From contig CP007053.1 in assembly GCA_000242935.3 (NCBI GenBank), positions 2,837,001-2,901,000 of the forward strand: a stretch of DNA of 64,000 nt, given 5' to 3'. This document shows positions 3,201 to 62,492 of the stretch, in pieces. Positions within the stretch are counted from its first letter, which is position 1, and each line of letters opens with the position of its first letter. This DNA is from Opitutaceae bacterium TAV5 (GTDB lineage Bacteria; Verrucomicrobiota; Verrucomicrobiia; Opitutales; Opitutaceae). The translations under genes and the position numbers were made by a program. Below the pieces are notes generated by a model that saw only the letters and a list, made by a program, of their open reading frames with translations, did not search any database and was not told the DNA's origin.

Positions 3201-4676
3201 TTACTCATCTGTCGGATCAGGTGATAAGGGACGGTAATTGACGCCCTGGAAAAGATCACTGGCGAGCAGGGTGCGAAGACGGTTCCGAAAGGAGGCCGGA
3301 TTTTTCCGCCCGGGAGTTGTCCAGGCGACTTCCGCCAAAGCGCACAGACGCGGGAATGCCATGTATTCGAGATCGGAATACTCAGGAACAAGCTCGCTCC
3401 AGAGGCAGGCCTGCACGCCGAGAACGAGGTTGTGCCGGGAGGGGTCGAGGCCGGCAGGGACAGGTTCATAGCCGTAAACTTTTTCCAATGTGGTGATGTG
3501 CGAGCCCATCGCTGGTGGCTCGGTCGCGTGGTCGCCCTGAGCGTAGTCGAAATAACAGTGACTGGACGGGGTCATGACTACGGGGTTGCCCTGTTCGAAC
3601 GCAACCTGCATCCAGGCGGTGTCGTCGCGCCAGGACATCACGACGGCGGTCGGCGAGAGGCCGCCTTCGTGGATATCGTCCCAGCCGACGAGTTGGCGGC
3701 CGCGCGAACGGAGGAAGGTTTCGATGCGGCGCACGAACCAGCTTTGCAGGGCGTCGCCATCGGCGAGCCCGTGCGCGGACATCACGCGGCGCGCGGTCGG
3801 GGAGGCGAGCCACTGGTCCTTCGGCACCTCGTCGCCACCGATGTGGATGCAGGGGGAGGGAAACAGGTCGAGAATCTCGTCGAGCACGTTTTCGAGAAAT
3901 CGGAAAACCGCTTCGGTTGGCGCGAAGGTGTAGCGGTGGATGATCCAGCGGGTTTGCACGGCGGGATTGAAGTCCGGCGCGTCCTGGTTGCCGAACTCGG
4001 GGTAGGCGGCGATGGCGGCGGAGGCGTGGCCGGGCATATCGATCTCGGGCACTACAGTGATGTGACGTTCGGCGGCATAGGCGACGATCTCGCGGATTTG
4101 GTCCTGCGTATAAAAACCACCGTAGCGTTTTCCGTCGCCCTGCGTGCGGTCGTGGAGGAGAGGCGACTCGGCCCGCCATGCGCCGACTTCGGTAAGGCGG
4201 GGATATTTTTTGATCTCGATGCGCCAGCCTTGGTCGTCGGTGAGGTGCCAGTGAAAAACGTTGAACTTGAGCAGCGCCATCAGGTCGAGGAAGCGCTTGA
4301 GCTCATCCGCAGTCTTCATGTAACGAGCGACATCCACATGGACGCCACGCCATGCGAAGCGTGGCTGGTCGCCGATAAACAGGGCAGGGAGTGCGGTGGC
4401 ATTGGCAGCCCGGGCGTTGGCGACGAGTTGCCGAAGGGTTTGCCGAGCGTAAAACAGACCGCGTTCGGTGCTCGCGGCGAGCGTGATGCGACCGCGGGTG
4501 GCGGGAGCATCAGGAGTGATTTCGAGCGTGTAGGCCTCGTCCGACGCCAGGTCGTCGGAAGCGGCTGACATGAGCCGGCAATGAATGTCGGCGGTCGGAA
4601 TATCGGCATGGGCGGACGGCAGGGCATAGCTGCCTTCACGTGATTCGGAGGAAACCGGAAGCGGTATGGTTGTCAT
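3201..4676 (-). CDS. GH20 beta-N-acetylhexosaminidase
   Basis: A 491-residue protein. An N-terminal alpha/beta domain (about residues 1-100) precedes the (beta/alpha)8 barrel, which begins FAWRGVHVDVARYM. FHWHLTDDQGWRIEIK (about 141-156) and VVPEIDMPGHASAA (about 208-221) are strongly conserved GH20 segments. The catalytic Asp-Glu pair lies in HIGGDEVP (D282, E283). These enzymes release terminal GlcNAc or GalNAc by substrate-assisted catalysis. No signal peptide is visible, so the enzyme probably works in the cytoplasm on imported oligosaccharides, which fits the adjacent sugar-binding protein. A perfect 16-bp palindrome lies 10 nt upstream of the ATG. Confidence 0.95.
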   Translation of the reverse strand: MTTIPLPVSSESREGSYALPSAHADIPTADIHCRLMSAASDDLASDEAYTLEITPDAPATRGRITLAASTERGLFYARQTLRQLVANARAANATALPALFIGDQPRFAWRGVHVDVARYMKTADELKRFLDLMALLKFNVFHWHLTDDQGWRIEIKKYPRLTEVGAWRAESPLLHDRTQGDGKRYGGFYTQDQIREIVAYAAERHITVVPEIDMPGHASAAIAAYPEFGNQDAPDFNPAVQTRWIIHRYTFAPTEAVFRFLENVLDEILDLFPSPCIHIGGDEVPKDQWLASPTARRVMSAHGLADGDALQSWFVRRIETFLRSRGRQLVGWDDIHEGGLSPTAVVMSWRDDTAWMQVAFEQGNPVVMTPSSHCYFDYAQGDHATEPPAMGSHITTLEKVYGYEPVPAGLDPSRHNLVLGVQACLWSELVPEYSDLEYMAFPRLCALAEVAWTTPGRKNPASFRNRLRTLLASDLFQGVNYRPLSPDPTDE

Positions 4677-18708: not shown

Positions 18709-18840
18709 GGGGAAGTTTGAAGTTGGTAGTTGGAATTTTGCAGTTGGTCTTCGGCTGCGCAGCCCGCTCCTCGCCGCTACCGGGGATCGGAGACCAACTC
18801 CAAATTTCAAACTGCCAACTACCAACATCCAACTTCCCCG
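18709..18840. repeat. Low-complexity AT-rich imperfect palindrome
   Basis: The left arm (18709-18751) is made of GAAGTTTGAAGTTGGTAGTT-like words. The right arm (18791-18839) is its approximate reverse complement (ACTGCCAACTACCAACATCC and neighbours), with about 40 nt of GC-rich spacer. It sits between the possible small gene and the downstream end of the membrane-protein gene. The word style matches the element at 62350-62492. Confidence 0.85.
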
Positions 18841-19047: not shown

Positions 19048-19123
19048 CGTCGGGGGAAAATGCCGAAAGCCTGAAAAGCGGAAAGACTGAAAGGCAGGGA
19101 CCGGAAACCGAAGTGATGTTGAT

Positions 19124-19315
19124 GGAGCGGCGGCATTCCTGCCGCTGCCGCTGCGACGAGGCGCGACAGCGCCTCGCCGTCTCAACGGGGTGCCTCTCGA
19201 TTGCCCATGTTTTCCCCCTCCACTTCCCTTCCCCCCTTCTCTTCTCTCACCTTGCCTCCCCCTCCGATCCGGCGACGCTTCGCGTCGTCTGCAGCGGCAG
19301 GAATGCCGCCGCTCC
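19124..19315. repeat. Paired 25-bp inverted repeat element, copy 1
   Basis: The left arm at 19124-19148 begins GGAGCGGCGGCATTCCTGCC. The right arm at 19291-19315 is its exact reverse complement (ending GGAATGCCGCCGCTCC). Inside are further short hairpins (GAGGCGCGACAGCGCCTC; GACGCTTCGCGTC). Two more pairs with identical arms are at 55809-55955 and 58981-59100. Here it separates the divergent membrane-protein and DUF5069 genes. Confidence 0.92.
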
Positions 19316-19378
19316 GTCAATCCCGGTCCTCCGATTTTCCGGCTTTCCGACCTGCCGGCTTCTTCCCTGAATCCCGCC

Positions 19379-19842: not shown

Positions 19843-19980
19843 GTGCCACGCCGGTGGCACGGGCATCTTGCCCGTGGACGGCGCGAAGCGCCGCCTCTGT
19901 CCGGCGCGAAACACGGGCAGGATGCCTGCGCCACGCGGAGAGGCAACGTTCACGGGCTGGAAGCCCGTGCCACGCCGGGC
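19843..19980. repeat. GC-rich palindromic repeat cluster
   Basis: Right after the DUF5069 stop, GTGCCACGCCGGTGGCAC, then GGGCATCTTGCCC, then GGCGCGAAGCGCC, and finally CACGGGCTGGAAGCCCGTG (19951-19969) form a chain of small hairpins. A close relative of the last one, CACGGGCGGGAAGCCCGTG, is at 60539-60557. A dispersed intergenic repeat family is likely. Confidence 0.75.
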
Positions 19981-20375: not shown

Positions 20376-20468
20376 GGGGGGCGGCGAGCCGCGTGGCGGC
20401 AGGCCTCGACTTTTCCTGCCGGAAAAGTGCCTGCCGGGACGCGGGCGAGATGCCGTCAGCGTTTGGCG

Positions 20469-20536
20469 TAGCTGCGAACGCAAGTTCGCAGGCTCCGGAG
20501 AGGAGGCGATTGCCTGCGAACTTGCGTTCGCAGCTA
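20469..20536. repeat. Perfect 24-bp inverted repeat with 20-nt spacer
   Basis: Left arm 20469-20492 (TAGCTGCGAACGCAAGTTCG...) and right arm 20513-20536 are exact reverse complements. Each arm also carries its own internal near-palindrome (GCGAACGCAAGTTCGC). Confidence 0.95.
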
Positions 20537-20549
20537 CAGCACGCCCCTT

Positions 20550-25524: not shown

Positions 25525-26979
25525 TCAGGCGCACGCATCGAGCGCGGCGTCGAGAGCCTGTTGATCGAGATGCACGCCGATGAACACCAGTTCCTGGCGG
25601 CGGTCGCCGTGCGGCGGCTCCCAGAGGGCGCGGATCGTGGCGGGCAGTTTCTCTTCGGTGATCTGTCCGCGCTCGACGAGCGTGGCGGCCCAGGGGCGCA
25701 GGTATTCGATGCGCGCGATACGGCCGGCGGCGGAGAGAAACGCCATTTCATCGTTTTTTTCCTTCGCCCAGAAAAAACCTTTGGCGCGCAACAGGCCGGG
25801 GATGCCGTCGCGCCCGATCAGCGCACAGACGGCGTCAGCGGAGAGTGGCCGGCGGCGCGTGTACAGGCAGGTCATAATGCCGAAACGCGCGGCGTGATCA
25901 CCGGCGCCGGCGGAGCGCGGACTGGCCGGCGTGGAGCCGGACGCGGAGGTGACGACGGGCGCGGTGCGGGCAGTGCGGCGGCGGAGATTGGCCTCGCCGA
26001 GGGTATTCAGGTTCTGAATCCACGCCGCACTTTTCAGCGAGACCTGCGGATCGAAACGGGACGCGCCGGGCCAGAATCCGGGCCCAAGGCGGGCTTCGCG
26101 GGCCGGGTGGATTTCGGCGCGCGGGTTGAGGCCGGCCAGCAGGGCGGTGACGGTGGCCAGCTCGCCGGCGGAGACGAGATCGGTCTTGTTGACGACGATG
26201 ACATCGGCGCACTCGGCCTGCTCCACCATGAGCTGGAAGACCGGCGTGTCGCCGCCGGCGGCATCGGAAGCGGGCGGGGTGTCCGCAACCACTCTTTCTC
26301 GTTCTCCTTCTCTTTCTCGTTCTCCGGATTGTGGTCTTTCCCGTTCTCGTTCTCCTGCCTGCGTTCCGGGGCGTCTTGCGAGTTCCGGAGCAGGAGAATG
26401 ATCAGGAGAAAGAGAAGGAGGACGAATCCGGACCGGAGAAAGAGAACGAGCAGGAGAAGGAGAACGATTCCCATCGGAAGCGGGCGAGGTGTCCGCCGGC
26501 TGCCGCCAGCCGGCGAGGAAACGGGCGGCGTCCACGACGGTGACGAGCGCGTGCAGGCGGGCGAACTCGCCGAGGGTGCGGCCAAATTCGTTGGGACGCA
26601 GAAACAGGTCGGCGAGGGGGCGCGGGGTGGCGACGCCGGAGCATTCGACGACGATGTGGTCGTAGCGCCCGGAGGCGGCGAGTTCGGCGACGGTTTCGGC
26701 AAGCTGGTCGCGCACGGAGCAGCAGACACAGCCGTTGGTGAGTTCGATCATGCGCGCGGCGGACGCGACAGCGTGGCCGGGCAGCGCCTCGCGGAGGAGC
26801 GCGGCGTCGAGATTGAGAGCACCGACGTCGTTGACGACCAGCGCCACACGCAGCCCGTGCGGTGCGGAGACCAGGCGGGTGAGGAGCGTGGTTTTTCCTG
26901 CGCCGAGGAAGCCGGATACGATCGTGACCGGCGGCAGCCGGGCGGGATCGGTTTCGACGGGAGGAATCAGCGATGGCAT
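25525..26979 (-). CDS. CobW/YjiA-type GTPase with an in-frame 70-residue low-complexity insertion
   Basis: The ATG at 26979 gives 484 residues. G1 is IVSGFLGAGKTTLL (about 20-33), the metal-binding motif is TNGCVCCSVR (C-x-C-C, about 81-90), followed by HIVVECSGVA, G4 is VVNKTDLVS and the C-terminal CobW domain includes FFWAKEKNDEMAF and RQELVFIGVHLDQQAL. Family members are 320-380 residues long. The excess lies between VVDAARFLAGW and FQLMVEQAECADVIVVNKTD: a Ser/Pro then Arg/Glu-rich stretch (RSPSPARSLSP ... GEREREGERER) encoded by a palindrome at 26287-26472 flanked by 24-nt direct repeats. The insertion is exactly 210 nt, so the frame survives. Likely a metallochaperone (zinc or cobalt class); whether it still works is open. 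Confidence 0.9.
   Translation of the reverse strand: MPSLIPPVETDPARLPPVTIVSGFLGAGKTTLLTRLVSAPHGLRVALVVNDVGALNLDAALLREALPGHAVASAARMIELTNGCVCCSVRDQLAETVAELAASGRYDHIVVECSGVATPRPLADLFLRPNEFGRTLGEFARLHALVTVVDAARFLAGWRQPADTSPASDGNRSPSPARSLSPVRIRPPSLSPDHSPAPELARRPGTQAGERERERPQSGEREREGERERVVADTPPASDAAGGDTPVFQLMVEQAECADVIVVNKTDLVSAGELATVTALLAGLNPRAEIHPAREARLGPGFWPGASRFDPQVSLKSAAWIQNLNTLGEANLRRRTARTAPVVTSASGSTPASPRSAGAGDHAARFGIMTCLYTRRRPLSADAVCALIGRDGIPGLLRAKGFFWAKEKNDEMAFLSAAGRIARIEYLRPWAATLVERGQITEEKLPATIRALWEPPHGDRRQELVFIGVHLDQQALDAALDACA
26263..26496. repeat. Palindromic polypurine/polypyrimidine insertion inside the CobW gene, with flanking direct repeats
   Basis: Direct repeats 26263-26286 and 26473-26496 (ATCGGAAGCGGGCG[G/A]GGTG..., 23 of 24 identical) are 210 nt apart. 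Between them the left half is pyrimidine-rich (CTCTTTCTCGTTCTCC words, 26292-26366) and the right half is the purine-rich counterpart (GAGAAAGAGAACGAG words, 26386-26467), making an imperfect inverted repeat. Protein-level duplicates ADTSPASD and ADTPPASD mark the borders. Confidence 0.9.
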
Positions 26980-27193
26980 GGTGGCAACACCAGCAGATGC
27001 ACCGGGAAGAGGAGAGGCAAACAAACGCGTCCGTTTCTGCGGATGTGGCTCGGCTTGAGGAAGGAGGGCGGCGCGGGAGCGCCGGTCACCACAGGCAGGG
27101 ACGCCTGTGGCTGCGGTTTGCGCGTAGCGGCATGCCTCCGTGTGGTTCGACTCCGCTCACCACCCTGAGCTTGCCTCCCTGCATGCCGGTCCG

Positions 27194-28630
27194 TCAGCCG
27201 GAGGCGGGCGTCAGCCTGTAAACGTGCGGTTGGGGGCGGGCGGCGACGCGGATTTGTTCGACGAGGGCACGGATGCGGGTCTGCGTTTCGGCCTCCTGCG
27301 GTTTCATTTTCAGGTAACGTTGCACGACGCCGCGGTTGTAGTTGTCCATGCGGTTGTCGCTGCCGTTCCATTTTTCGACGAGGGCTTCGAGGCGGGCGCG
27401 GACGTCGTCAAAGCTGACGGGATGGGCGACGTCGCGAAGGTGGAAGTGTTCGACCTGGGCGACGCCGCGATCGCCGTGCGCGACGAGGGCGCGCCACTGC
27501 ATGACGAGTTCGAGCACCCCGGCGGCCTGTTTTGCCTGGGGAGTCCCGGGCAGGGTGGCGAGGTTGACGCCGGTGGCGAGTTCGGCGGCGGTCCAGGTAC
27601 GGATGATCTGCTGGTCGATGGCCAGGGTGTAGTTGCCGGGCGCGAGACTCTCGACGACGAGGGTCTCGCGGTTGAGGTCGTCGGTGAAGGGGATGTAATC
27701 GAGGGCGGGCGTGGCGTTTTTTTCGACCGGACAGGGAAGGGCGGCGGCGTTGACGGTGAAAGTCAGGGTGGCGGCGCCATCGGCGGCTGTCCGGGTGAGG
27801 GCGGTGACGGTGGCGTTGCGGACCCTGGTGACGCGGGGATTGGCGCCGGAAGCATCGATGGCGACGTGCGAGACTTCGGCAGGGGCGCCCTGGCTTTGCA
27901 GGAAATAGTAGGCCATGACGAAGTGGCCGGCCTGACGCGGATGGACGCGGTCGGGGCCAACGAGGGTGAAGGCGGGATCGGCCTGCTGGAGTTTCGCGTT
28001 GAGCGTGGTCATGGGACGATGGATCTCGATGAGGCCGATCTTGCCGTCACTGGCGGCGGCGGTGTCGCGGGCGAACTGCGCGCAGTCGGCGAGGGCAAGG
28101 CTGTTGACGCCGGGGAGGTTTGCCGCGGCACGGTCGCTCTGCATGGTTTCGTCGTAGATCGACGGGGTGAGGAGCTGCACGCGCGCGCCGTCGGCCTGGA
28201 GGCGGGCGATGAGCTGTGTCATGTTCTTCCGGTACGCGGCGAGCGCGTCGGCGCGACGTTTGAGGATGTCGGGCGAAGGTTCGGTGGAGCCTGAGGGGAG
28301 TTCGGCGTAGAGGTTGCGGTTCACGTCGTTCATGCCGAGCATGACGGTGGCGACGGTGGGTTTTTTTGCAGCGATGTCCCAGTCGTAGCGACGGAGCGCG
28401 CCGGCGGCGGAGTCGCCGGAGATGCCGCAGTTGAAGATGTCGATGGCGCGGTCGGGGAAACGGGTGGCGTAATAAACGGCGATCCAGGTGTGGTAGTATC
28501 CGTTCTGCGTGACGCTGTCGCCGACGACAGCCCAGCGGTCGCCGTCGCGAAAGAGATCGGCGGTGGCGGCGTGGGCAGGGGAGACAATGAAAACGAGAAC
28601 TGTGAGCAGCAGGGCGGGGAGGTGACGCAT
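27194..28630 (-). CDS. Secreted SGNH/GDSL hydrolase (module B)
   Basis: A 478-residue protein with a signal peptide (LPALLLTVLVFIVSPAHA). Block I is WAVVGDSVTQNG (Ser in GDS), block II NCGISGDSAAG, block III MLGMNDVN and block V DRVHPRQAGH (Asp/His), so the full Ser-His-Asp set is visible. SGNH enzymes of this kind deacetylate sugars or cleave other esters. After ~270 residues comes a beta-rich region (ATLTFTVNAAALPCP; LVVESLAPGNYTLAID), then a C-terminal helical end. It is the last gene of the module B operon, 10 nt after the pseudopilin gene. A carbohydrate esterase role is the best guess. Confidence 0.88.
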   Translation of the reverse strand: MRHLPALLLTVLVFIVSPAHAATADLFRDGDRWAVVGDSVTQNGYYHTWIAVYYATRFPDRAIDIFNCGISGDSAAGALRRYDWDIAAKKPTVATVMLGMNDVNRNLYAELPSGSTEPSPDILKRRADALAAYRKNMTQLIARLQADGARVQLLTPSIYDETMQSDRAAANLPGVNSLALADCAQFARDTAAASDGKIGLIEIHRPMTTLNAKLQQADPAFTLVGPDRVHPRQAGHFVMAYYFLQSQGAPAEVSHVAIDASGANPRVTRVRNATVTALTRTAADGAATLTFTVNAAALPCPVEKNATPALDYIPFTDDLNRETLVVESLAPGNYTLAIDQQIIRTWTAAELATGVNLATLPGTPQAKQAAGVLELVMQWRALVAHGDRGVAQVEHFHLRDVAHPVSFDDVRARLEALVEKWNGSDNRMDNYNRGVVQRYLKMKPQEAETQTRIRALVEQIRVAARPQPHVYRLTPASG

Positions 28631-34330: not shown

Positions 34331-34415
34331 GCCCACGAAACACACGGAAGGACACGAAATCCAAACCATCGGATTTCTGTCTCTTCTTTCGTGTCCTTTC
34401 GTGTGTTTCGTGGGC
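34331..34415. repeat. Imperfect palindrome with 28-bp arms
   Basis: Left arm 34331-34358 (GCCCACGAAACACACGGAAG...) and right arm 34388-34415 are reverse complements in 27 of 28 positions. The 29-nt loop contains a smaller hairpin (ATCC...GGAT). It lies between the AraC gene and the isomerase-like gene. The CACGAAACACACGAAA word style suggests another dispersed repeat family. Confidence 0.93.
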
Positions 34416-54753: not shown

Positions 54754-55836
54754 ATGAACCGCCGCACCTCCCCTCCCGCCTCTGTCACTGCTGCGCCTGC
54801 GGTGCCGCGAACCATGGCCGAACTGGGAAAACTCGCCGGATGCAGTGCGATGACCGTATCGCTGGCCTTGCGAAACAGTCCGCGCGTCTCCGCCGCCACG
54901 CGCAGACGCATCCAGGCACTCGCAGCCAAACACGCGTATCGGCCCAATCCGCTGGTCGTGGCGTTCAACGCGCACCGGCGGCGTTCGCATCCGGCGTTTC
55001 AGGCGACGGTGGGATTTGTAACCTGTTTCGGCACGCGCGCGGGCTGGAAAACACAATTTCCCGCCTACCGGACCTTGCGAAACGGACTCGGAAAACGGGC
55101 CGAGGCGCTCGGCTACACGGTCGAGGAATTCTGGATACGGGACCCGGAGATGCCGGCCCGCCGGCTCCGGCAGATCATCGAGGCCCGGGGCGTGCGGGGT
55201 CTGGTGCTCGCGCCCCTGCCCGCCGACGGTTTCACGCTGCCCGCCTTCGACTGGTCGGACCTGGCGGTGGTGGCGACCGGCTACTCGATCCGGAAACCCG
55301 ACTTTCACCGGGTCTCGCACGACTACTTCCATGGCATGATGCTGGCGCTGGAGCGTTGCCGGGCAAAAGGCTACCGGCGCATCGGCTTTTTTGTGGACCG
55401 GCGCGTCAACCGGGTGATCTACAATCTGTGGCTGGCGGCCTGGCTGGCCGAACAACGCACGACGGCCGGAGCGCCACGTCTCGAAGCCCTGCTGACAGAA
55501 CCGGACACGCGGCCGGACCTGGCGGGATGGGCGCGCCGTGAGCGGCTGGACGCGGTGGTGGGGCTGGATGTCCGGGAGCTGGAAGCGCGCGGCATGACGC
55601 TGCCGCCGGGCGTGGCGCGGGTGGCGCTCAATGCCGACGAGGCGGGCGCCGGGCGACGGCAACCCGGCATCAGTCGCAATTTTGCCGGACTCGGGGCCGC
55701 TGCGATGGACCGGCTGGCGGGATTGTTGCATGCCAACGATTACGGCGTGCCGGCCTGTCCGCAGACCACGTTGATCGCAGGCACATGGATGGGCGACCGG
55801 TTCCTGCCGGAGCGGCGGCATTCCTGCCGCTGCTGA
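54754..55836 (+). CDS. LacI-family transcriptional regulator whose last residues come from a repeat element
   Basis: Start chosen at the ATG at 54754 (360 aa); the upstream TTG at 54742 is less likely. The helix-turn-helix is MAELGKLAGCSAMTVSLALR (about 21-40), then RVSAATRRRIQALAAKHAYRP. The effector domain contains GVRGLVLAPLPADG, DLAVVATGYSI, RVSHDYFHGMMLALERC, GYRRIGFFVD and LDAVVGLDVRELE. The final residues, ERRHSCRC, are encoded by the left arm of the 25-bp inverted-repeat element at 55809-55833, with the stop right behind it. The native C-terminus was therefore probably replaced. It runs in the same direction as the FAD oxidoreductase and fucosidase genes, its likely targets. Confidence 0.92.
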   Translation: MNRRTSPPASVTAAPAVPRTMAELGKLAGCSAMTVSLALRNSPRVSAATRRRIQALAAKHAYRPNPLVVAFNAHRRRSHPAFQATVGFVTCFGTRAGWKTQFPAYRTLRNGLGKRAEALGYTVEEFWIRDPEMPARRLRQIIEARGVRGLVLAPLPADGFTLPAFDWSDLAVVATGYSIRKPDFHRVSHDYFHGMMLALERCRAKGYRRIGFFVDRRVNRVIYNLWLAAWLAEQRTTAGAPRLEALLTEPDTRPDLAGWARRERLDAVVGLDVRELEARGMTLPPGVARVALNADEAGAGRRQPGISRNFAGLGAAAMDRLAGLLHANDYGVPACPQTTLIAGTWMGDRFLPERRHSCRC

Positions 55837-55955
55837 CGACGCGAAGCGTCGCCCTGTTCGGGAAAGTCGGGGAAGGTTTGAGTAAACCGCGGTGCTCACC
55901 GGCAAAGGGCGAGGCGCGTTGCGCCTCGTCGCAGCGGCAGGAATGCCGCCGCTCC
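55809..55955. repeat. Paired 25-bp inverted repeat element, copy 2
   Basis: Left arm 55809-55833, right arm 55931-55955, identical to the arms of copies 1 and 3. The inside again holds small hairpins (GACGCGAAGCGTC; GAGGCGCGTTGCGCCTC). It reaches into the coding end of the LacI gene. Including it, the gap 55837-56020 before the FAD gene holds nothing else that I recognise. Confidence 0.92.
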
Positions 55956-56020
55956 GTTACGTGACGGACGGGCACGTTTACTGTTAAAACAAACGGACCC
56001 TTGGCCGCTCCGGCATCCGG

Positions 56021-58979: not shown

Positions 58980-58980
58980 C

Positions 58981-59100
58981 GGAGCGGCGGCATTCCTGCC
59001 GCTGCCGTGAATCGACCGGACTCTCGTGAGCATCCCGCGGAATGTTTTACGGGACCGGAGCTTCGTCCGGCAAAAGCAGCGGCAGGAATGCCGCCGCTCC
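58981..59100. repeat. Paired 25-bp inverted repeat element, copy 3
   Basis: Left arm 58981-59005, right arm 59076-59100, identical to the arms of copies 1 and 2. It fills the gap between the convergent fucosidase and sufE genes and could act as a shared transcript end. Confidence 0.93.
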
Positions 59101-59106
59101 GGTCGC

Positions 59107-60421: not shown

Positions 60422-60630
60422 AGGTTTTGTGGTGGTTCGCCGGTACGATAGGCCCGCTCTGTAAGGGGATGATGTCGGAAGGCCGGAAATTTGTTAGCGG
60501 TGTGTAAATGCAGGGCGACGCTTCACGCCGTCCACGTCCACGGGCGGGAAGCCCGTGCCACTTCCCGGGCAGTCTTCCCTTCCCATGACACCGGCAAAAT
60601 GCAGCGAGGCCGATCCGGCGGCCGTCTGCT
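60422..60630. other. Gap between EF-hand and histidine kinase genes
   Basis: No gene is seen. A hairpin CACGGGCGGGAAGCCCGTG (60539-60557) belongs to the same repeat style as the cluster at 19843-19980. Confidence 0.5.
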
Positions 60631-62349: not shown

Positions 62350-62492
62350 GGGCGGAGGGGAAGTTTGGAATTTGAATTTTGGAATTTGAAGTTGGCAGTT
62401 TGTAGTTGGGTTCCGACCACCGATTCATGTCACCAATTTCCAAATACAAATTTCAAATTACAAACTTCCAGCTTCAAAATTCAAACTTCCGG
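62350..62492. repeat. Low-complexity AT-rich palindrome inside a two-component operon
   Basis: The left half has GGAAGTTTGGAATTTGAATT-like words and the right half their approximate complement (ACAAATTTCAAATTACAAAC). It fills almost the entire gap between response regulator and kinase. Same style as 18709-18840. It could form a long hairpin in the mRNA. Confidence 0.85.

Follow-up and report, generated by a model that had tools for sequence, protein, structure and literature searches.

How did a cobW-family GTPase gene of the termite-gut bacterium Opitutaceae bacterium TAV5 come to carry a 210-nt palindromic stretch within its reading frame, and what kind of element is that stretch? The DNA analysed here (the window) is 64,000 nucleotides long and spans positions 2837001–2901000 of a 7,317,842-bp contig, in a genome of 7,417,673 bases and two contigs; the published chromosome measures 7,317,842 bp and the plasmid 99,831 bp (PMC4358385). 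We use "YR" (pyrimidine/purine) for a hairpin in which a pyrimidine-rich stretch is followed by its purine-rich complement.

The insert and its host gene

The host gene encodes a protein of 499 amino acids in which Pfam recognised cobW (E 3.8e-44, in two stretches) and CobW_C (E 1.6e-17); the top NCBIfam model, zinc chaperone ZigA, scored under its cut-off (277 vs 600 bits). The features of the locus, in window coordinates and in the order in which the gene is read, are as follows.

25525–27024, minus strand: cobW-family GTPase gene with the insertion (499-aa ORF, Pfam cobW and CobW_C)
26719–26733, minus strand: GCVCC (residues 98–102; coordinates derived from residue numbers), which we take to be the conserved CxCC motif, preceding the insert in the protein
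26472–26496, no strand assigned: second direct repeat, 24 of 25 positions identical to the first
26287–26471, plus strand: YR hairpin with a pyrimidine-rich arm, a GC-rich centre and a purine-rich arm, oriented as the other TAV5 copies
26442–26467, plus strand: outer purine arm of the hairpin, pairing with 26299–26324
26299–26324, plus strand: outer pyrimidine arm of the hairpin, 92% complementary to its partner
26262–26286, no strand assigned: first direct repeat, bordering the hairpin on its left; it resembles a degenerate REP and sits where other copies have GCGGGCGTCYCGCCCGC
26179–26190, minus strand: intact NKTD (G4) motif after the insert, placed by sequence and orthologue alignment

The direct repeats measure 25 nt (24 nt in the first-pass annotation), are 96% identical and are spaced 210 nt apart. 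The frame stays open across the insert and on both sides of it, with the GTPase motifs intact. The added length is divisible by three and holds no in-frame stop, so the protein is extended, not cut, gaining about 70 residues that are Ser/Pro-rich and then Arg/Glu-rich ahead of the G4 motif. The outer inverted arms are 26 nt long, and several more arm pairs are present. Folded as single-stranded DNA, positions 26287–26472 reach −48.6 kcal/mol, where shuffled sequences average −29.7 (z −6.1, matched by 0 of 200 shuffles), and the coding-strand RNA of the hairpin stretch folds at z −4.9 (0 of 200). These results uphold the first-pass annotation, which had described an in-frame 210-nt insertion between near-identical direct repeats, built of a pyrimidine-rich half and its purine-rich complement and placed before G4 without breaking the frame. 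The strand asymmetry to which it also drew attention is real as a purine/pyrimidine bias, but no function of the bias was seen. Across the whole window Rfam returned one tRNA and nothing else at its gathering threshold, and a plasmid collection gave no match. Structure prediction of the protein from eight sequences reached a mean pLDDT of 45 and a pTM of 0.48. Residues 176–260 fall below pLDDT 50, and since the same holds for most of the C-terminal part, we build no claim on the predicted fold of the insert.

Comparison with orthologues points to an insertion. All 22 aligned cobW orthologues (21 distinct, L012 being identical to L066) lack the insert. From a conserved Asp to NKxD the TAV5 protein measures 113 residues, against 40–49 in 20 of the 22 orthologues, 57 in L015 and 79 in L063. 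Subtracting 70 codons, so that one 24-nt repeat is kept, leaves 43 residues, inside the common range, and subtracting both repeats leaves 35, under all 22. From these lengths, the ancestral gene most likely carried a single copy of the 24-nt sequence. In genome G026 the L063 orthologue carries, at this linker of CobW, an independent purine-rich tract that encodes Glu/Arg-rich sequence and contains GAGAACGAGGAACGAG words, so this site tolerates length change. Elsewhere in G026, L188 holds a long purine hexamer array (positions 230–450).

The first-pass annotation had proposed looking in close relatives for an empty site with one copy of the 24-nt repeat, and none was found in the same-genus genome G001. 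Matches to cobW in this genome were no better than E 3e-25, the insert used as query had none, and a strict YR hairpin was absent. Flank segments of 15 other YR copies were also searched there; 13 gave a locus, of which none was collinear past the element and none formed an empty site, three of the 13 having little sequence on the far side (50, 1260 and 1543 bases). Three loci (L036, L048, L051) yielded short non-collinear pieces, and three additional weak flank pieces were left out of this check. An association of YR loci with breakpoints was considered for the loss of collinearity and dropped, given that TAV5/G001 blocks are short generally and that three loci had little sequence.

YR copies and their flanks in TAV5

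Used as a query against its own genome, the insert gave 54 matching pieces at E ≤ 0.001, itself included. Of 51 candidates from the first look 40 were scored, and merging the pieces by hand left about 22 places besides the insert, which is thus a member of a dispersed family. The best copies are 75–79% identical over query positions 8–209 of 234, centre included. Copy counts exclude a low-complexity place at 780267 (L035), the flank tests exclude the partial copy L043, and the alignment and frame tests used 15 of the 22 other copies (a 16-copy alignment). By a simple gene caller, 19 of the 22 overlap no called gene and eight TAV5 copies lie 8–31 nt past a stop codon. The remaining three overlap an ORF (L032, L038, L052), which we judged in each case to be either weakly supported or called with too early a start.

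The shared centre bears directly on whether the insert could have grown in place, a purine-rich Arg/Glu linker being expanded by hexamer slippage and inverted template switching. Such growth would account for the hexamer units, and purine tracts coding for Glu/Arg-rich sequence do stand at the same linker in L063, long, and in L015, shorter. Slippage would not, however, give a match of 75–79% to distant copies with a common centre, which already disfavours growth in place; we consider it very improbable.

In the 15 other copies 41 of 45 forward frames are open; dinucleotide shuffles average 6.6 and random window stretches 17.6. On the reverse strand, the orientation in which cobW reads its insert, 11 of 45 are open, against 8.5 and 24.5. 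Shuffling mixes both halves of the element and is an unfair null, so we draw no claim of selection from open frames.

In the usual TAV5 layout a REP is followed by two bases, then CCACTC...GATTCCGG, then a second REP, the two REPs being mostly in the same orientation by eye. Among 21 copies, 16 have a REP-like palindrome within 45 nt to their left and 16 to their right, 13 have one on each side and 19 on at least one, with automatic copy boundaries visibly misplaced in L037 and L038; eight of the 21 lack one on one or both sides, two of them on both. The same pattern fits 251 of 5,000 random 45-mers of the window. Exact sites across the genome number 256 for GTGGCRCGGSNNTCNNNSCCGYG and 205 for GCGGGCGTCYCGCCCGC, with none for either reversed control; a single site may fit both patterns, as one did among 100 sites listed for GTGGCRCGGSNNTCNNNSCCGYG. 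The flanking modules are thus GTAG-type REP/BIME units (palindromes of 20–40 bp, a GTGG tag, high copy number), which the YR hairpin itself is not. In most GTAG-20 elements of O. terrae GTGG replaces GTAG, according to the text of PMC3733652, and the GTGG tag of TAV5 fits this pattern.

GTGG-tagged REPs also occur in the window away from the insert. Only exact and one-mismatch sites were counted, since three mismatches bring the pattern to chance level (8 vs 5.0 expected).

19854–19973, no strand assigned: three GTGG-tagged REPs, two exact and one with 1 mismatch
60539–60561, minus strand: single GTGG-tagged REP, exact

The first-pass annotation had also seen palindromes of the same style elsewhere. 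This holds for the genome, where the YR copies lie, but not for the other palindromes of the window, which are of different kinds; apart from the insert, TTCTCSTTCTC (at most one mismatch) turns up as two isolated occurrences, at 28589 and 44922. A recurrent palindrome with CGGCGGCATTCCTGCCGC in inverted pairs, apparently another family, stands at 19119–19320, 55808–55956 and 58980–59101. Positions 20468–20537 hold a perfect 26-nt inverted pair starting with GTAG (GTAGCTGCGAACGCAAGTTCGCAGGC), like a GTAG-tagged REP dimer, and further inverted repeats at 34331–34415, 18709–18839 and 62371–62485 comprise a 29-nt pair (97% complementary) and two AT-rich pairs.

At cobW itself both flanks fit the loose REP pattern at ≤1 mismatch, which 251 of 5,000 random 45-mers also do, and stand about six bases off the consensus. 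The 24-nt repeats hold the positions of REPs and resemble degenerate ones; that they come from REPs is our judgement. Similarity between the two flanks is higher within loci than across them (22 loci, permutation p 0.0045), with 96 of 5,000 permutations when the window copy is removed (21 loci). This fits duplication on insertion or REP–REP recombination.

We regard it as probable that a composite REP–YR–REP copy whose spread is linked to REPs was inserted into a tolerant CobW linker. A composite with YR arms of TTCTCN-like hexamers, bounded by REP palindromes, would have spread to about 23 TAV5 sites, mostly intergenic. One copy would have entered the variable CobW loop between the CxCC half and the G4 motif, and its 210 nt without a stop would then have been read as a linker of some 70 residues. 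Spread may have gone through the REPs: a REP-associated tyrosine transposase (RAYT) may have carried the composite, or a donor with REPs on its flanks may have recombined with a target resembling a REP, which would leave REP-like direct repeats. To our knowledge, a RAYT would not be expected to duplicate its target on transposition. The protein presumably still works, the linker being permissive. The idea of a small element that moves by itself, or of amplification, tolerated as a linker is thereby kept in part: the family is dispersed and the frame open, but with REPs beside most copies the element may move or recombine together with them.

YR hairpins across the Opitutaceae

The pattern TTCTCNTTCTC N15–45 GAGAANGAGAA occurs in 21 of 61 family genomes (38 sites in G004 alone), with a reversed control of zero in all. 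A class-wide draw of 188 genomes, counted by family label, gave it in 9 of 18 from the same family and 1 of 170 others. TAV5 contributes one strict match, its other hairpins having longer centres. As a DNA query the insert matched 18 of 57 genomes, TAV5 among them; every one of the 18 belongs to the family, and the 20 genomes of other families gave no match.

At places picked from the listed matches in G004, G017 and G024, 61 of 62 hairpins overlap no called gene. Their contexts, for hairpins at least 300 nt from a locus end, are given for the three genomes in that order.

Between tandem genes: 12, 11, 11
Between divergent genes: 3, 8, 2
Between convergent genes: 6, 3, 2
No gene on one side: 0, 1, 2
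Overlapping a gene: 0, 0, 1

Hairpins this strong, eight of which in TAV5 closely follow a stop codon, could in principle be captured intrinsic terminators or RNA regulatory hairpins. Yet divergent genes flank 13 of the 62 hairpins in the three genomes, and the insert has no T tract after its hairpin; it does not fit the definition of an intrinsic terminator as a GC-rich stem with a T tract at a gene end. The arms, moreover, pair with their own partner no better than with those of other copies: permutations reaching the observed value numbered 4988 in G004, 4541 in G017, 2266 in G024 and 2163 in TAV5, each of 5,000, with own-arm complementarity in G004 below cross-arm. A consensus RNA fold of the 16 copies has 26 pairs, of which one shows two-sided change, and a covariation term of +1.55 kcal/mol. 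The arm comparison speaks against an RNA structure that is being maintained and favours a pair of inverted copies of one common arm type; a conserved RNA structure of the YR hairpins is supported by neither analysis. We give an origin as terminator or regulatory hairpin hardly any credence.

The hairpin might instead be a MITE-like element in its own right, bearing terminal inverted repeats (AATCGTTCTC...GAGAACGATT) and mobilised by another transposase, the REPs merely accumulating in the same places and the 24-nt repeat being a long target-site duplication. Termini AATCG...CGATT do recur, by eye, in the hairpins of G004, G017 and G024, with no obvious REPs within 30 nt, and a duplicated target would agree with the linker length of 43 that one repeat copy gives. 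At L044 a putative transposase of YhgA-like type (Transposase_31, E 3.5e-21; positions 3348–4322) is encoded about 250 nt from the YR copy, and as far as we looked only beside that one. Set against this are the REP-like palindromes beside 19 of 21 TAV5 copies. Searches with three Y1_Tnp queries, too, gave no relative close to the YR copies tested, whether in TAV5 or in the three other genomes. Twenty-four nucleotides is unusually long for a target-site duplication. On balance we think such independence unlikely and keep to the REP-linked composite.

Known repeat classes share parts of this design. Bacterial MITEs, as described in the text of PMC10969869, are short, have inverted repeats and occur in many copies, and the inverted arms of YR hairpins are likewise terminal inverted repeats. 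For the YR hairpins neither a mother transposon, with three Y1_Tnp queries, nor a defined target duplication was found; the direct repeats at cobW and some other copies are confounded by REPs. BIMEs and REPINs (PMC2817692, PMC3116915, in the parts consulted) place REP modules around a spacer and accompany a REP-flanked RAYT gene, as in TAV5, whereas the spacer of the YR composite is a long hairpin of recurring Opitutaceae design and its REPs are mostly uninverted. The Rickettsia palindromic elements (RPE) of Ogata (2000, 2002), as summarised in PMC10969869 and PMC3733652, are palindromes of about 150 bp in frame in unrelated genes. The cobW insert resembles them as an in-frame insertion that keeps its gene open, but RPE belong to another phylum, and most YR copies lie outside called genes (19 of the 22 others) and are flanked by REPs; the two are set apart here by their descriptions.

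REPs and a RAYT cassette inside other TAV5 genes

REPs entirely inside ORFs have been reported before, the GTAG-type ones most often in O. terrae, where in 2013 the most intragenic GTAG-type REPs were counted and both uvrA genes found interrupted (BMC Genomics 2013, PMC3733652, main text). TAV5 belongs to the same family and also has REPs in frame in two UvrA-type genes. Across 64 TAV5 stretches (337,463 bases) we found 174 REP-like sites, of which 18 lie inside an ORF; 14 of these have coding signal before and after them. Five genes hold 12 of the 14, and the remaining two (L044, L210) resemble chance matches within ordinary coding sequence. The five genes are among 39 regions (L209–L247) drawn in the order in which exact GTGGCRCGGSNNTCNNNSCCGYG sites were listed, passing over REP sites at YR loci and one at position 50. 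The survey covered REPs at least 150 nt from a locus end, and its in-ORF counts are a lower bound, as the gene caller missed the RAYT cassette described below, flagging none of the eight REP hits at the isochorismate synthase locus L248, and missed the degenerate cobW repeats too. The in-frame clusters are as follows.

L209: residues 261–288
L211: residues 441–474
L232: residues 389–435
L237: residues 246–282
L240: residues 450–474

The genes encode a PabB/TrpE-type enzyme, two UvrA-type proteins, a GH2 mannosidase and a TGT ORF with a methyltransferase end. By NCBIfam, pabB and one UvrA exceed the cut-off and the second UvrA-type protein falls under it. All three genes aligned to solved homologues have extra residues in TAV5: UvrA 437–509 vs 445–477 of 9gxk, the PabB-type enzyme 232–302 vs 246–256 of 7pi1, and the mannosidase 237–289 vs 245–264 of 2vjx.

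One of six Y1_Tnp loci in TAV5, L088, has REP clusters on both sides, with nine REP matches around a Y1_Tnp domain that exceeds the Pfam cut-off and scores just under that of NCBIfam REP_Tyr_transpos (E 1e-20, 74.1 vs 80 bits). It is thus a RAYT gene flanked by the same REPs that occur in the genome, and it lies inside another gene.

L088 424–2823 (G000:C1:4440148–4442547): REP–RAYT–REP cassette in an isochorismate synthase gene, 800-codon open frame
L204 (G024:C104:3485–5641): equivalent cassette at the same site, from another genus, 724-codon frame

The 800 codons run from an N-terminal isochorismate synthase part through REPs, RAYT and REPs to a complete Chorismate_bind domain, and the frame exceeds the cut-off of TIGR00543 isochorismate synthase. 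The RAYT parts of TAV5 and G024 are 62% identical over 186 residues. Among the matches listed for 31 family genomes, the enzyme parts stand side by side without the cassette in 27, G001 included, and G010 and G011 show no adjacent pair; the TAV5 cassette locus was also aligned with the loci of five relatives from this isochorismate synthase comparison.

The principle of in-frame REPs is therefore known, and the YR hairpin family, apparently undescribed, is the new part. The cobW insert is mostly a hairpin of about 185 nt, unlike the 20–40 bp REPs of O. terrae, and the running text of PMC3733652, as distinct from its figures and supplements, does not mention such a family. Among titles and opening lines of abstracts, literature on in-frame palindromes, REP/RAYT systems, O. 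terrae repeats and Verrucomicrobia palindromes held no description of a YR hairpin, and full-text searches with YR sequence words brought up no paper on bacteria of TAV5's group. Within the same scope, and mostly outside subscription journals, literature on RAYT and isochorismate synthase described no transposase inside that gene.

A broader reading, possible but in our estimate somewhat doubtful, is that YR hairpins form an undescribed, Opitutaceae-restricted, hexamer-built palindromic mobile family, joined in TAV5 to the REP/RAYT system and inserting composites and a RAYT gene in frame, so that REP systems would be a source of new linkers and domains. In-frame palindromic insertions, so far represented by those of Rickettsia and the REPs of O. 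terrae, now include a long composite hairpin from a further genome of the latter's family. The cobW, uvrA-type, pabB-type, tgt, mannosidase and isochorismate synthase genes offer a set in which the cost or use of repeat-encoded linkers could be measured. The near confinement of YR hairpins to one family among the genomes searched, together with a RAYT in frame in a metabolic gene of two genera, provides leads on how REPs spread.
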